DNA of 39,263 nt. Source: a virus. Made by a program: the position numbers and the translations under genes. Of this stretch, positions 8,609 through 39,263 are shown one piece after another. Numbering within the stretch: position 1 is the stretch's first letter; each line of letters opens with the position of its first letter. Below the pieces are notes generated by a model that worked only from the letters and a program-made list of their open reading frames with translations, was not told the origin of the DNA and did no database searches. The stretch is taken from positions 1 through 39,263 of the IMG/VR virus record IMGVR_UViG_3300042876_000714; one strand, 5' to 3'.

Positions 8609-9136
8609 ATGAAGGGTGTCGACAAAGAGCGGTGCAGGCAAGCTGGCGTCGAGGAAGACGCGTTCCAGCCAGAGGCTCGCAACATTGAACTGCGGCTTAC
8701 ACGCCTGACGTGGCGGATCGTGCGGGCGCAGTGCGAGATTGATGACTTGCCGGTCGAGGTCGCTTTGGCGCAGCTGCTAGACGCCTGGGCGGCGGATCGG
8801 TACGTCGCTGCACACAAGCTGTTGCCGGTTATCGAGAAGTTCGGTGCGCTTTCCCCGCCGCCGCCGGGGAGATTGCCAAAGCGCCTGTACTTCGTGCGGC
8901 GTGGCGCGGACGGACCGATCAAGATCGGCGTGAGTGAGGACGTGACTGCACGCCTACGCCAGCTGCGGACCGGCTCCGATGAGGCAATTGTCGTCCTGGC
9001 CGTGGTCGAGCAGACCGACGTCATCAATGAGCGCGCTCTCCACGTGCGCTTTGCTCAGCATCGAAAGCAGGGTGAGTGGTTTGAGCCGCATGAAGAGTTG
9101 TTGCGGTTCATCGACTCCCTGAAGGGATCGGAATGA
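8609..9136 (+). CDS. T5orf172/GIY-YIG-related DNA-binding protein
   Basis: A 175-residue protein. Residues 1-85 are helical and unrecognised. Residues about 92-170 match the T5 Orf172 / MUG113 branch of the GIY-YIG superfamily: LYFVRRG (93-99), IKIGVSEDVTARLRQLRTG (104-122), a glutamate in NERALHVRF (Glu141) and GEWFEP (155-160). Family members are found in phage early regions and are predicted to bind or cut DNA. Stop and next start overlap by four bases, placing it in the replication operon. This is one of two GIY-YIG-class proteins here. Confidence 0.85.
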   Translation: MKGVDKERCRQAGVEEDAFQPEARNIELRLTRLTWRIVRAQCEIDDLPVEVALAQLLDAWAADRYVAAHKLLPVIEKFGALSPPPPGRLPKRLYFVRRGADGPIKIGVSEDVTARLRQLRTGSDEAIVVLAVVEQTDVINERALHVRFAQHRKQGEWFEPHEELLRFIDSLKGSE

Positions 9137-21895: not shown

Positions 21896-22726
21896 ATGGC
21901 AAACGGAGCAACGAAGCAGTACAAGTTTGGAACTAAGAACAACTGGCGCCGGCAGATGTGGAACCAGTTTCGGGCGCGATTGCGCAACCCAAAATTGGCT
22001 AAGGGGCTGTATCTGGCTGGCCCAGAAAACTTGGACTTATCGATTGCAGTCAGCAAGGGGTTTGACCCCCGCAACTTGGTCGCTGTTGAGAAAGACCAAG
22101 CAGCTGTGGAACAGCTGCGAGCAAGCGGGCAGTTGGTAATCAAGGGCGACTTCGCGGAGGTCTTGCTTTCGTGGCCAGCCGACATTCCTCTTGATTTTGT
22201 GTACGGCGATTTCTGCTCAGGACTTACTCGTGACTTAGACGCTCGTCTCGGTTGCGCATGGCATCGGGCGCCTTTCCGCAATGCTGTTTGGGGCCTCAAC
22301 TTTCTGCATGGGAGAGAGAGCGGCGTTCAGCACTGGCTGGAGTTTCACAAAGACGAGCGCCAGGTGCTGGACAGGCATCGCGGGGTGATCTTCCTTTGCA
22401 ATCGCTTTGCGATTGGTCCTTCTGAAGAGCTTTCAGTGGTAACGGGCACAACCGAGCAAGTTCGCGAAGCGATTCGCGAATCGCTTCGCGAAGCGCACCA
22501 TCGAATGATGCCGTGGGTTCGTCGATACAAGTCGGACGTTGGCAATCTTTACTTCGACTCGATAGTGGTGAATCGCGCCGCGCCGACGGATGTCTGTCCA
22601 AAGCTGGATGCAATGTTGATGGGGGAGGTTGACGCTGGGCTGCGGAGACGCATTGCTGCCGCGCTTGCGCTTCGCACAATGAAGCATCGCCAGGTTGGCC
22701 CCTATGCAGATCGGAGGGCCGCGTAA
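21896..22726 (+). CDS. Low-GC accessory protein, methyltransferase-like fold
   Basis: A 276-residue protein. The region LYLAGPENLDLSIAVSKGF, then NLVAVEKDQAAVEQL (an acidic residue after a second strand) and DFVYGDFCSGLT has the strand/helix order of a class I S-adenosylmethionine-dependent methyltransferase, though the usual GxGxG loop is altered. A cysteine-tryptophan segment (LGCAWHRAPFRNAVWGLNF) follows. Its base composition and codon use are clearly lower in G+C than neighbours, a sign of recent transfer. A 32-bp palindrome lies inside it. It is coupled by a shared base to the methyltransferase-glycosyltransferase gene. Fold is likely; substrate unknown. Confidence 0.62.
   Translation: MANGATKQYKFGTKNNWRRQMWNQFRARLRNPKLAKGLYLAGPENLDLSIAVSKGFDPRNLVAVEKDQAAVEQLRASGQLVIKGDFAEVLLSWPADIPLDFVYGDFCSGLTRDLDARLGCAWHRAPFRNAVWGLNFLHGRESGVQHWLEFHKDERQVLDRHRGVIFLCNRFAIGPSEELSVVTGTTEQVREAIRESLREAHHRMMPWVRRYKSDVGNLYFDSIVVNRAAPTDVCPKLDAMLMGEVDAGLRRRIAAALALRTMKHRQVGPYADRRAA
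22461..22492. repeat. Perfect 32-bp palindrome inside the low-GC accessory gene
   Basis: The 32 bases are exactly self-complementary. They contain three copies of TTCGCGAA (22461-22468, 22473-22480, 22485-22492) at 12-bp spacing, separated by GCGA and TCGC. In the gene they encode a short repeat (REAIRESLREA). A strong hairpin or cruciform is possible within a coding sequence. Confidence 0.85.
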
Positions 22727-24378
22727 TGGTTTGGAAAGCAAACGCGCCGCAGGGCGCAGAGGCATTCAAGATCAGGTTCGACCTGATCCCGTACTGCGGC
22801 GGCAGCGTGCTGGATCTCGGCTGCGGGCCGAGCAAGGTGTTTGCGCACGCGGTCGGTGTCGACAACTACACCGAGACGCGGCTCTTCGGCATCCAGATGA
22901 AGCCGGACGTTGAGGTCGAGACCTGCGAGCGGCTGCCGCAGTTCGCCGATGCCAGCTGGGACTGCGTGTTCAGCAGCCACCTGCTCGAGCACATCGTCGA
23001 CTTCAAGGCGGCGCTGCAGGAGTGGTGGCGCCTGGTCAAGCCCGGCGGCACGCTCGTGCTGTACCTGCCGCACAAGGCGTTCTATCCCAACATCGGGCAG
23101 GAGGGCGCCAACCCGGACCACAAGCACGACTTTTACCCAAGCGACATCGTGCTCGCAATGGTCGAGGCCTGTGCCGATTGGGACCTGGAGCTCAACCAGG
23201 AGCGCAACAAGTACCTGGAGTACTCGTTCCTGCAAGTGTTCCGCAAGAAGCCGGCCGGCAGCGGCGTGAGCTACAGCTACAAGGACCAGCCCAGCGCCAA
23301 GCGCTGCGCGGTGGTGCGCCTGGGCGCCTACGGCGATGCGCTGTGGGCCAGCAGCATCCTGCCGCACCTGAAGGCCGAGGGCTATCACGTGACGGTCTTC
23401 ACGCAGCGCCAGGGCCTCGAGGTGCTGCGGCATGACCCGCACGTCGATGCGTTCGTCGACGTGCAGGACCGCCTGTTCCAGCACATGCCGCTGCTCGGCT
23501 ACTGGGTCTGGCTGGAGGAGAACTTCGACCGCGTCATCAACCTGACCGGGTCGGTGGAGACGCGGCTGCTGCCGGCCCACAACGACAACGAGTTCTACTG
23601 GCCGGACAGCACGCGCCGCGCGCTGATGAGCCAGGCCAACTACCTGGCCGACATCCACACCATGGCGGGCGTGCCGCACGTGTGGTGCCAGAAGTTCTAC
23701 GCCACCGCCGGCGAGCAGATCGACGCGGCCGCCCTGCGCGCCACGCTGCCGCTGAACGCCGAGCAGCGCCTGGCCGGCTATGAGCTGGCGCCGCTGGTGG
23801 TGGTGGCGCCGACCGGCAGCAGCGTGGCCAAGTGCTGGCCGCACGTGCAGGAGTTCATGGAGCGCATGGCCGACGCCGGCGTGCACACGGTGGTGGTGGG
23901 CGAGCTGCGCGGCCCCACGGGCCGCGACGAGCTCAAGCTCAGCCCGGTGGTGCGCAACGGCATCACTTACGGCCACGTGTGGGGCGTGAGCAAGCCGATC
24001 CGCCAGGTGATGGCGCTGGCGCAGATCGCCGACGCGGTGGTCGGCACCGAGTCGGCGGTGGTCAACGCGGTGGCGTTCGAGCCGATGCTCAAGGTGGTGC
24101 TGCTGAGCCACAGCACGCACGCCAATTTGACGAAGCACTGGAATGCCACGGTGCACTTCGCGGCCGAGGGGCTCAAGTGCTACCCCTGCCACCGCATCCA
24201 CAGCGACCTGAGCTTCTGCACGCGCCATCCGCAGACCCGGGGCGCCATGTGCCAGGCGCTCGCCACTGCCGACGTGATCGCCGGCGAGGTGCTGCAGTAC
24301 CTGGGCTGGCGCCTGAGCAACAGCGAGCCGCCGGCCGAGCGGGCGGTTCAGGCGTCTGAACTGAAGCAAGCGGCCTAG
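22726..24378 (+). CDS. Methyltransferase-GT9 glycosyltransferase fusion
   Basis: A 550-residue fusion. Residues about 1-175 are a class I methyltransferase with motif I SVLDLGCGPSKV (27-38), FSSHLLEHIVDF and LVKPGGTLVLYLPH. Residues about 190-545 are a glycosyltransferase family 9 (ADP-heptosyltransferase-like) domain: VVRLGAYGDALWASSILPHL, VVVAPTGSSVAKCWPHVQEF, and IADAVVGTESAVVNAVAF, with a cysteine-containing end (CYPCHRIHSDLSFC). GT9 enzymes normally add heptose to lipopolysaccharide. In a phage head region it could alter host surface sugars, phage DNA or virion proteins. Base use matches the phage, unlike its upstream partner. Two domains are firm; the substrate is unknown. Confidence 0.88.
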   Translation: MVWKANAPQGAEAFKIRFDLIPYCGGSVLDLGCGPSKVFAHAVGVDNYTETRLFGIQMKPDVEVETCERLPQFADASWDCVFSSHLLEHIVDFKAALQEWWRLVKPGGTLVLYLPHKAFYPNIGQEGANPDHKHDFYPSDIVLAMVEACADWDLELNQERNKYLEYSFLQVFRKKPAGSGVSYSYKDQPSAKRCAVVRLGAYGDALWASSILPHLKAEGYHVTVFTQRQGLEVLRHDPHVDAFVDVQDRLFQHMPLLGYWVWLEENFDRVINLTGSVETRLLPAHNDNEFYWPDSTRRALMSQANYLADIHTMAGVPHVWCQKFYATAGEQIDAAALRATLPLNAEQRLAGYELAPLVVVAPTGSSVAKCWPHVQEFMERMADAGVHTVVVGELRGPTGRDELKLSPVVRNGITYGHVWGVSKPIRQVMALAQIADAVVGTESAVVNAVAFEPMLKVVLLSHSTHANLTKHWNATVHFAAEGLKCYPCHRIHSDLSFCTRHPQTRGAMCQALATADVIAGEVLQYLGWRLSNSEPPAERAVQASELKQAA

Positions 24379-37268: not shown

Positions 37269-37592
37269 CTAGTCTGCCAGCGGTGGCGGCTGCTTGCGTC
37301 TGCAGGCGGCCGCATCGGACCGCGTCTTGATCCGGTGCTCCTCAAACCGCAGCCACTGCAGGTTGCTCACCGCGTCCCGGCCACCGGCGCACAGCGCCAG
37401 TACGTGGTCCACCTCCCACCCCGGGCACGGCCCGCGCGTCTTGCCCGTCGCCGGGCAAGGCTGCAGCCGCTTGAATTCCGCCACCACAACGCGCGATCGT
37501 GCGTGCGCTGGTGCTACCCCACACAGTAGGGCGGCCAACGCAATGGCGAGGCTGTACGCGAGCCGCAGCGGCATCCCTCGCAACCCCAACAT
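37269..37592 (-). CDS. Secreted HNH-nuclease-like protein
   Basis: A 107-residue protein with an N-terminal signal peptide (LAYSLAIALAALLCGVAPAH, cleavage likely after AHA near residue 31). A compact HNH-like core follows: FKRLQPCPATGKTRGPCPGW, EVDHVLALCAGGRDAVSNLQ with His63, and KTRSDAAACRR. I recognise this type as the small exported HNH-endonuclease-like proteins of proteobacteria. Its place between the lysis region and attP is typical of a lysogenic-conversion gene. Periplasmic DNA cutting, possibly against incoming phage DNA, is a hypothesis. Confidence 0.78.
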   Translation of the reverse strand: MLGLRGMPLRLAYSLAIALAALLCGVAPAHARSRVVVAEFKRLQPCPATGKTRGPCPGWEVDHVLALCAGGRDAVSNLQWLRFEEHRIKTRSDAAACRRKQPPPLAD

Positions 37593-37605: not shown

Positions 37606-37830
37606 GGTTCCAAACTAGCAGCGCTTGCCTGCGGTCCGACGCCTTCCTGCGGCGTCTTTTGGAACAACGCGCGAGCCATCGCCTTGATCGACAAGGCTTA
37701 TTGCAGTTGTTCGTAATCAGTAGGTCGGTGGTTCGAGTCCACTCAGCAGCACCAAAAATCAAGCACTTGGCGCGCTGCGTTTTCTCGGTTCCAAACGGTT
37801 CCTAACTCTGTCAGTGGCGCGTTTGGAACC
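37606..37830. other. attP: tRNA-like core with integrase arm-type sites
   Basis: The core at about 37710-37754 matches the 3' half of a tRNA: an anticodon loop TTCGTAA (anticodon CGT, threonine), ATCAG stem, T-loop GTTCGAGTC, and acceptor end CAGCAGC-A-CCA. The 5' half is absent, so it is not a functional tRNA. Arm-type repeats flank it: GGTTCCAAAC at 37606-37615 and 37787-37796, GGTTCCTAAC at 37797-37806, the inverse GTTTGGAACC at 37821-37830, and a partial inverse near 37657-37666. The integrase operon end lies 26 bases away. Integration into a tRNA-Thr 3' end would restore the gene. Confidence 0.82.
37638..37660 (+). terminator. Weak rho-independent terminator in the attP region
   Basis: GACGCC (37638-37643), 7-base loop, GGCGTC (37651-37656), then TTTT. 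It would end rightward transcription before the attP core. The short T-run makes it modest. Confidence 0.5.
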
Positions 37831-37855: not shown

Positions 37856-38452
37856 CTACAGGTTGTGCTTGATGTTGAGCCGCGGCCGCAGCGCCGCGAT
37901 ATAGCGCCGCTCCAGGTCCTCGCGCCCCAGCTCGCAAGGCACAAAGTGCCACGCGTCGAACTCGACGCCGTTGACCTGGTGCTGGCTCAGTCGCTGGCGC
38001 AAGTCGCTTGTTGATCCCACGTAGATGACCTCGCCGGCTGCAAGCAGGAAGTAGACGCCAGCCCATGCGCGATTGACCTGCGCGGCGCCGGCGATCTCCT
38101 CCGGCGTCAGCAGACGGTCGAGCTGCAGGCTGTCTCGCACTTGCGCGGCCAGCGCGAAGGCCTTGGGGCGATCGCAGCCGAGGTCGTACTGCAGCGCGCC
38201 CACCTCCACAGCAAAGCCGCTGCGCTTGGCCGTGACGCCAATCGGCAGCAGCGGCTGTCGCCTGCCTTTGAGCTTGAGCGGCGGTGCTGCACGCAGCTGC
38301 TCGGCCGTGGCCAGGGCTGTGGCCAGATGCTCACCGAGCGCCACCTTGCGTGCGCCGTCGCGCAGGTAGTACAGAGTGCGGTCGCCGCTCTTGCGCGCAA
38401 CGATGCCGGGCGGCAACCCTGCGGACGTGGTCCGTGGCCGGCCTGCCTTCAT
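37856..38452 (-). CDS. GIY-YIG nuclease fused to an integrase-like arm-binding domain
   Basis: A 198-residue protein. Residues 1-55 (GRPRT, LPPGIVARKSGDRTLYYLRD, then VALGEHLATAL) closely resemble the N-terminus of the adjacent integrase. Residues about 70-112 (LPIGVTAKRSGFAVEVGA, then KAFALAAQVRDSL) look like a second, diverged copy of a three-strand-plus-helix domain. Residues 130-195 are a GIY-YIG nuclease: GVY (132-134), YVG (144-146), Arg in LRQRL, Glu181 in LERRY and Asn193 in PRLN. The start shares ATGA with the integrase stop, so the two are co-translated. It ends next to attP. A role in integration, excision or att-site recognition is inferred. Confidence 0.85.
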   Translation of the reverse strand: MKAGRPRTTSAGLPPGIVARKSGDRTLYYLRDGARKVALGEHLATALATAEQLRAAPPLKLKGRRQPLLPIGVTAKRSGFAVEVGALQYDLGCDRPKAFALAAQVRDSLQLDRLLTPEEIAGAAQVNRAWAGVYFLLAAGEVIYVGSTSDLRQRLSQHQVNGVEFDAWHFVPCELGREDLERRYIAALRPRLNIKHNL

Positions 38453-39263
38453 TTGAGCGGCCTCACCTTCTCACCCCGGCGGTACACCCGCCGCGTCACA
38501 CTGTTGCTGGTGTGCCCAAGTCTCTCCTGGGCCTCCTGCAGCGTCTCTGAATCGCTCGCATTCTTTGCGCGCAGATCCCTGAACTGCCAGTCGGCCAGGG
38601 CGTTGGCCGCTGGGTCTTTGCCTTCGCCGCGCACCTTCGCACGCGCCAGGTCGAAGCGATCGCGCAGCTGCCAGTAGCTCAGCGGCGAGCCGTCGTCCTT
38701 GGCCAGAATCCACATGCTCGCAGCAGCGCGTTGCCGGCCCAGGGCGCGGTCGATCACCGCCTTGAGTGCTGGCGTCAGCTCGATGCGCAGCGGCTTGCCG
38801 GTCTTGGCCTGGCGCAACTCGAGGTAGCCGTCGACGATCTGTGCGCGCTTGGCGCTGAGCACATCGCGCACGCGCTGGCCGATCGATAGCGCGAGATCCA
38901 TCGCATCCTGCAGAACAGGGTCAGCCTGCTCGTACACCGCGCGGAACATCGCGTCGGTGACGTACACCTTGCGCGGCCGCTCCTTGTGCTTGGTCACGCC
39001 GCGCACCGGGTTCTCGCCGGCGGTGTGGCCCCACTCGCGGGCGCGGTTGTAGACGTGGCTAAGCAGCGCAATCTCGCGATTGGCCAGCACCTTGGCGCTG
39101 CGCGCGTCCAGGTAGGCGCGCACGTCCTGCGGGCGGATGTCGGCCACCGGCATGGCGCCAAAGACGGCGATCAGGCGATCGAGCTGCTTGTCCTGCTCGA
39201 GCTGGGTCTTGCGGCCCTTGGTGGGGAGCACGTCCTTGCGATAGCGCTCGGCCACCTTCTTGA
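38449..39263 (-). CDS. int: Tyrosine recombinase (phage integrase), C-terminal part, cut by window end
   Basis: This carries the core-binding and catalytic domains; it runs off the window at its N-terminal side. Catalytic features: first Arg in SIGQRVRDVL, beta-hairpin Lys in QAKTGKPL, the box RDLRAKNASD (Arg present, the usual preceding His replaced by Arg), His in RLGHTSN and nucleophile Tyr in RRVYRRG. The stretch 38983-39263 repeats 1-281 with five silent changes. Joined with 1-477, the protein is a continuous 336 residues. It catalyses integration and excision at the tRNA-type attP about 0.6 kb away. The stop overlaps the GIY-YIG start. Confidence 0.93.
   Translation of the reverse strand, partial: KKVAERYRKDVLPTKGRKTQLEQDKQLDRLIAVFGAMPVADIRPQDVRAYLDARSAKVLANREIALLSHVYNRAREWGHTAGENPVRGVTKHKERPRKVYVTDAMFRAVYEQADPVLQDAMDLALSIGQRVRDVLSAKRAQIVDGYLELRQAKTGKPLRIELTPALKAVIDRALGRQRAAASMWILAKDDGSPLSYWQLRDRFDLARAKVRGEGKDPAANALADWQFRDLRAKNASDSETLQEAQERLGHTSNSVTRRVYRRGEKVRPLK

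Follow-up and report, generated by a model that had tools for sequence, protein, structure and literature searches.

Lambda-type integrases and the site-specific recombination they carry out form a textbook system, whose parts list (Int, Xis, IHF, Fis) was regarded as complete. Nucleases with borrowed DNA-binding domains are also known, and several described systems come close to the phage locus described here. In the Tsy transposon, deletion of the GIY-YIG gene nuc impaired transposition, the gene itself not being essential (PMC10293859). As in our locus, a GIY-YIG gene accompanies the tyrosine recombinase gene(s), in Tsy as an operon; unlike our nuclease, and comparing by description only, nuc has no described integrase-arm or excisionase domain. 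Tsy is moreover a transposon, whose operon of YRec, HTH and TnsF lies in comM, whereas our locus belongs to a phage with one integrase and no TnsF among its ORFs. Odn of phage ICP1 (T5orf172; PMC8263062) likewise joins a GIY-YIG-superfamily nuclease to a DNA-binding domain from the core protein of a mobile element, but that domain comes from a rival's replication initiator and Odn cuts the rival's origin, whereas in our case the domain is that of the phage's own integrase and the gene lies next to its own att site. I-TevI-type and free-standing phage GIY-YIG enzymes share with our nuclease the residues of the GIY motif and the separation of a catalytic domain from a DNA-binding module; unlike in that type, no intron is seen here and the DNA-binding part is an integrase arm domain. 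P4 Vis/AlpA and DUF4224 proteins are known as small, stand-alone and nuclease-free, whereas their domains are fused to the GIY-YIG subfamily at several loci reported below (L014, L133, L134 and L370). Searches of open-access literature gave no paper on a fusion of an integrase arm domain, DUF4224 or AlpA to GIY-YIG; modular nucleases with borrowed domains are known, and att-directed ones, as far as found, are not.

The locus lies in the window, by which we mean the whole 39,263-base IMG/VR record analysed. The ends of this record (1-281 and 38983-39263) overlap by 281 bp at 98%, so that it is circular, with int wrapping round the ends; that the overlap is 98% and not 100% may reflect variation within the population or an effect of assembly, and each copy lies inside int. 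The gene of the lambda-type tyrosine integrase thus spans the contig ends on the minus strand, with its C-terminal 270 codons at 38449-39263 and its N-terminal part, including the arm domain, at 1-477 (1-281 repeating 38983-39263). The 336-residue integrase aligns to lambda Int (PDB 1z1b, 1z1g) over its full length (residues 5-324), arm domain included, with E=7.8e-13. Directly upstream of int, at 484-720 on the minus strand, is a gene for a DUF4224 protein (PF13986 above cut-off), which occupies the same position in most related int loci and is a candidate excisionase or partner of the integrase. The nuclease gene (37856-38452, minus strand, 198 aa) is coupled to int by an ATGA overlap, its ATG being at 38450-38452 and the int stop codon at 38449-38451. 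A first-pass annotation of the sequence had given these coordinates, the strand and the coupling, all correct on recheck, and had placed the gene between attP and int. Since the arm sites behind the nuclease flank the 3' part of a tRNA-Thr(CGU), the order reads DUF4224, int, nuclease, attP.

The attP core (37710-37754, plus strand) corresponds to the 3' part of tRNA-Thr(CGU), as shown by two Burkholderiales genomes that carry the intact, near-identical tRNA-Thr(cgt) gene. The 43-nt core has no exact copy in 399 Burkholderiales genomes, and the identity of the tRNA came from a shorter pattern allowing mismatches; attB is for these reasons a deduced site and not one located in a host. Around the core, putative arm-type sites GGTTCCAAAC flank the tRNA 3' end at 37606-37615 (plus strand), at 37787-37806 (plus strand, where GGTTCCAAAC and GGTTCCTAAC are adjacent) and at 37821-37830 (minus strand, 25 bp beyond the nuclease stop codon), with a putative degenerate site matching at 8/10 positions at 37657-37666 (minus strand). 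Exact GGTTCCAAAC occurs three times in the 39-kb window, always within 37606-37830, together with two degenerate copies, and GTTCCAAA is found four times within the 300 bp that follow the nuclease gene, and none of 500 shuffles gave as many. On the other side of attP, an ORF at 37269-37592 on the minus strand encodes a small protein that has what looks like a signal peptide and contains an HNH-like motif (EVDHVLAL...GGRDAVSNLQWL); Pfam gave no match for it.

The N-terminus of the nuclease had been described in the first-pass annotation as resembling that of the neighbouring integrase, and this likeness is borne out by alignment: residues 2-57 (38282-38449, minus strand) are identical to integrase residues 3-58 at 27 of 56 positions (48%; E=4e-16 in a single comparison), a score that none of 1000 shuffles matched. 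At the DNA level the two copies are 61% identical and agree at 54% of third codon positions, which marks this as an old and retained arm copy and not a fresh duplication. Against 30 sequences (the window integrase, one from Nitrosomonas and related Burkholderiales ones), the nuclease arm domain scored 130 with its own integrase, 84 with the next and 52 at the median; a tree also groups it with its own integrase, with weak support and on a long branch. In AlphaFold2 (AF2) models, residues 17-55 form three strands and a helix (E17-22, E25-32, E35-40, H43-55; pLDDT 92-95 in the full protein and 86-91 in a model of residues 1-112), and this predicted topology is that of the integrase arm domain (βββα). 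The unrelated fold that would have spoken against the annotation's reading of residues 1-60 is thus not what the models predict (pLDDT 86-95). With the 112-residue arm model, the domain being small, Foldseek returned no significant solved match and, against BFVD, marginal matches only, some of them named HNH endonucleases. The PF09003 model, with a cut-off of 22, gave no match for the window nuclease, which unlike lambda Int (PDB 1z1g) falls below that cut-off and has no recombinase catalytic domain; the window integrase itself scores 13.2, below the cut-off, and the relatives L035 and L194 score 22.2, PF09003 passing there in front of GIY-YIG. What the window nuclease carries is an arm domain and not an Xis-type DNA-binding domain.

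A second, diverged arm copy, also proposed in the first-pass annotation, fares less clearly and is moderately supported. This probable unit (about residues 65-110; 38123-38260, minus strand) scores against the first copy above all 1000 of 1000 shuffles (z=5.8), and AF2 of residues 1-112 places a second βββα at 71-108 with pLDDT of about 64-71, the alignment rows barely covering the stretch; on the other hand, BLASTP of the unit gave no alignment and the full-length AF2 model leaves the stretch mostly unstructured.

The C-terminal part of the protein is a GIY-YIG catalytic domain (about residues 131-195; 37868-38062, minus strand) in which every catalytic residue is present, in keeping with the earlier description of an intact active site: GVY at 132-134 (Y134), YVG at 144-146 (Y144), R154, H158, E181 and N193. 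Membership of the GIY-YIG superfamily follows from a PF01541 match of 26.3 bits against a cut-off of 22.6, and the predicted fold matches the GIY-YIG domain of UvrC (probability 1.00, E=1.3e-3). Among integrase-linked GIY-YIG members, the catalytic positions are intact in 19 of 20. A role as a defence gene was considered and rejected, since PADLOC gave only weak matches, confined to the GIY domain (best 2.9e-4), and linked the protein strongly to no defence system. The idea of an ordinary intron endonuclease was rejected as well, the group I intron endonuclease model matching far below its cut-off and in relatives only.

Related loci were collected by alignment scans of IMG/VR and of genomes and then checked by script; alignment queries were required, as scans of IMG/VR with the single nuclease or integrase protein gave no match. 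A complete integrase together with an arm-type GIY-YIG protein was found at seven loci: the window, L035, L040, L057, L135 (from a Myxococcales MAG), L370 and L385. The nuclease gene stands just behind int in the window, L035 and L370, further behind it in L040 (1.9 kb) and L385 (0.65 kb), and just before it in L057 and L135. When the N-termini were scored in a 7 x 7 matrix, all seven nucleases scored highest with their own integrase (own-pair scores 130, 87, 107, 64, 154, 196 and 172), for a summed own-pair score of 910 against 808 for the best alternative pairing. The first pairing test, on five loci, had given P=1/120, and L370 and L385, found later, fitted. These tests leave out L019, where the contig is cut and the integrase N-terminus missing; L033 and L194 had no usable partner, the contig of the latter arm-type protein showing no integrase in the 582 bp that precede the gene. 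Among 19 integrase-linked loci taken without filtering, five nucleases match their own integrase and the others match none, and the sum of z was reached in 1 of 100000 permutations. The survey of genomes for the same fusion, suggested in the first-pass annotation as a check, thus yielded an N-terminal match to the own integrase at seven independent loci.

These seven loci cover several arm classes, namely lambda-like, two kinds that we describe as AP2-like, and a DRHG..FRR..PGS kind. On a tree of the catalytic domain, which is short of columns and leaves many forks open, the arm label needs five changes, of which the well-supported branches force at least two. The sister nucleases L057 and L370 (97/88) differ in arm class, and the arm domain of each matches the integrase at its own locus, which indicates that the arm domain tracks the recombinase and not the nuclease; L033 and L135 are also sister nucleases with different arm classes. 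Identities within arm pairs are 36-62% in amino acids with third codon positions mostly diverged, which shows long retention of the copies. Repeats lie directly behind the nuclease gene in the window, L133, L370 and L291; for L035, L019 and L385 the repeats in that position did not reach significance in the test, L385 having copies of GGTTTAGC, one of them overlapping the stop codon. The idea that nuclease and recombinase could read the same arm sites gains support from the seven own-integrase matches and from the position of several of the genes directly before repeats that look arm-like; the annotation's interpretation as a whole is partly supported.

Other integrase-linked members of the GIY subfamily have no arm domain and carry instead DUF4224 (L133, PF13986; L134), AlpA (L014, PF05930) or HTH_17 (L271); this division into classes is descriptive, as the labels were assigned after looking. 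The N-terminus of L014 matches phage excisionases, among them P4 ORF88, which is named both as excisionase and as transcriptional regulator. In L370 a DUF4224-like gene (read from the translation) is followed by int, the arm-type GIY-YIG gene, three ATAGCACA repeats and a DUF4224/GIY-YIG gene; here, at L370:2993-5522, two GIY-YIG genes stand behind int, and the arm domain of the first is 62% identical to that of its own integrase. The DUF4224-GIY-YIG fusion is also seen at Nitrosomonas loci, L133:423-2160 and L134:3860-4384, the latter beside tRNA-Leu; in L133 the fusion gene follows int and precedes a tRNA-like 3' end that has three GTTCCGCAA sites around it. In Sinorhizobium phage NV1.1.1, int is followed by an ATGA-coupled GIY-YIG gene with an HTH-like N-terminus. 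At L211:2285-5974 a pair of integrases is interleaved with a pair of dissimilar GIY-YIG genes, of which the first is ATGA-coupled to the first integrase and the second to a small HTH_17-like gene. A further, large group (L200-L208, L165, L168, L174, L041) has an undescribed N-terminal domain (RPEFIS...DFR...KLFkV...), which could be another att- or origin-binding module; in L041 it adjoins an integrase. None of 24 TPEER-type members has an integrase within 2 kb, and two GIY members with a TPEERKA N-terminus (L005, L006) lie beside trb transfer and kfrB-like genes on MOBP plasmids, with no tyrosine integrase nearby.

As regards distribution, a related integrase is present in 24 of 399 Burkholderiales genomes (27 loci), nearly always with a DUF4224-like gene upstream of int, and at no locus is int accompanied by a GIY-YIG gene, so that the nuclease is dispensable. 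One match at E<=1e-12 among 369 genomes sampled from the class of G001 shows that the nuclease is rare in chromosomes.

The reading that we favour, and to which we give about an even chance, is that the protein is made together with Int and, as a nuclease targeting the att site of its own phage, modulates recombination by nicking or cutting. The GIY-YIG domain would be guided by an arm-type DNA-binding domain, probably by two of them, which the phage copied from its lambda-type integrase; the protein would bind the GGTTCCAAAC arm sites and, when Int is made, nick or cut at the own att site and so alter site-specific recombination. Integration of lambda requires a supercoiled attP, and excision does not. 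A site-directed nick could then relax attP, so that integration would be blocked or redirected with excision still possible; alternatively, the nuclease might stimulate recombination, as the GIY-YIG helper does in Tsy transposons. We favour involvement in recombination of the phage itself because the captured domains share the att site, the link of DUF4224 to that site resting on gene position, and because the nuclease is coupled to Int. Against an att-directed reading it counts that most integrase-linked GIY-YIG proteins have no arm domain, that the 27 related Burkholderiales loci do without the gene, and that the arm-type protein L194 is preceded by no integrase in its stretch of contig; the GIY domain may also be present as a selfish passenger.

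The nuclease might instead be an att-directed weapon or homing nuclease that cuts the att of related phages sharing its arm sites. Such cleavage would keep rivals out of the tRNA-Thr site or, through gene conversion, spread the block of int, nuclease and att, and bound Int or sequence differences would shield the phage's own att. GIY-YIG is the classic homing domain, free-standing phage nucleases are located at boundaries of genetic exchange (PMC10448857), and Odn, whose DNA-binding domain is that of the replication initiator of a rival, cleaves the rival's origin (PMC8263062); the patchy presence among related integrases is compatible with such a role without proving it. We nevertheless regard it as rather unlikely, since the N-terminal domain matches the own integrase and not that of a rival, which makes the own att the best target, and since the gene is coupled to int and not placed in a lysogeny or early operon; the weakness of the PADLOC matches points the same way. 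Own-integrase pairing and co-expression together make a part in recombination of the phage itself more likely than a purely offensive function.

It is less probable again that the protein is a binding-only regulator, which would sit on the arm sites as an excisionase does, or as a competitor that inhibits Int, with a GIY domain that does not cut in vivo: I-TevI can repress without cutting (discussed in PMC10448857) and the alternative N-termini are of excisionase type (AlpA/P4 Vis, HTH_17), but retention of all catalytic positions in nearly every integrase-linked member speaks for cutting. Chance accretion, in which a GIY-YIG gene behind int took up the neighbouring 5' end as a generic unit with no att role, is very unlikely: short tandem duplications can produce domain fusions, as is generally known, and the subfamily also has unrelated N-termini away from integrases (the TPEER type), but the degree of divergence within arm pairs and the recurrence with several arm classes, plus DUF4224 in one locus, are hard to obtain by accident.

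If modulation of the phage's own recombination is the correct reading, a co-expressed nuclease bearing the integrase's arm domain would be an unknown component of lambda-type site-specific recombination, and the question it raises is whether cutting at att sets the direction of recombination or polices rival phages at the same tRNA site. That the same pairing arose in unrelated phages with other integrase types points to an undescribed class of att-aimed nucleases. More tentatively, and with slightly less than even confidence, we suggest that in this class GIY-YIG repeatedly captures a local att-reading domain, whether integrase arm, excisionase or DUF4224, and, with the integrase, sets the direction of integration and excision or the commitment to it. 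The nucleases are compact, and their targets may be readable from the adjoining attachment site.

Elsewhere in the window, a second protein of the GIY-YIG superfamily (MUG113/T5orf172) is encoded at 8609-9136 on the plus strand, and at 22726-24378, also on the plus strand and within the structural block, Pfam identifies a fusion of a methyltransferase with a glycosyltransferase of family 9 (heptosyltransferase type).
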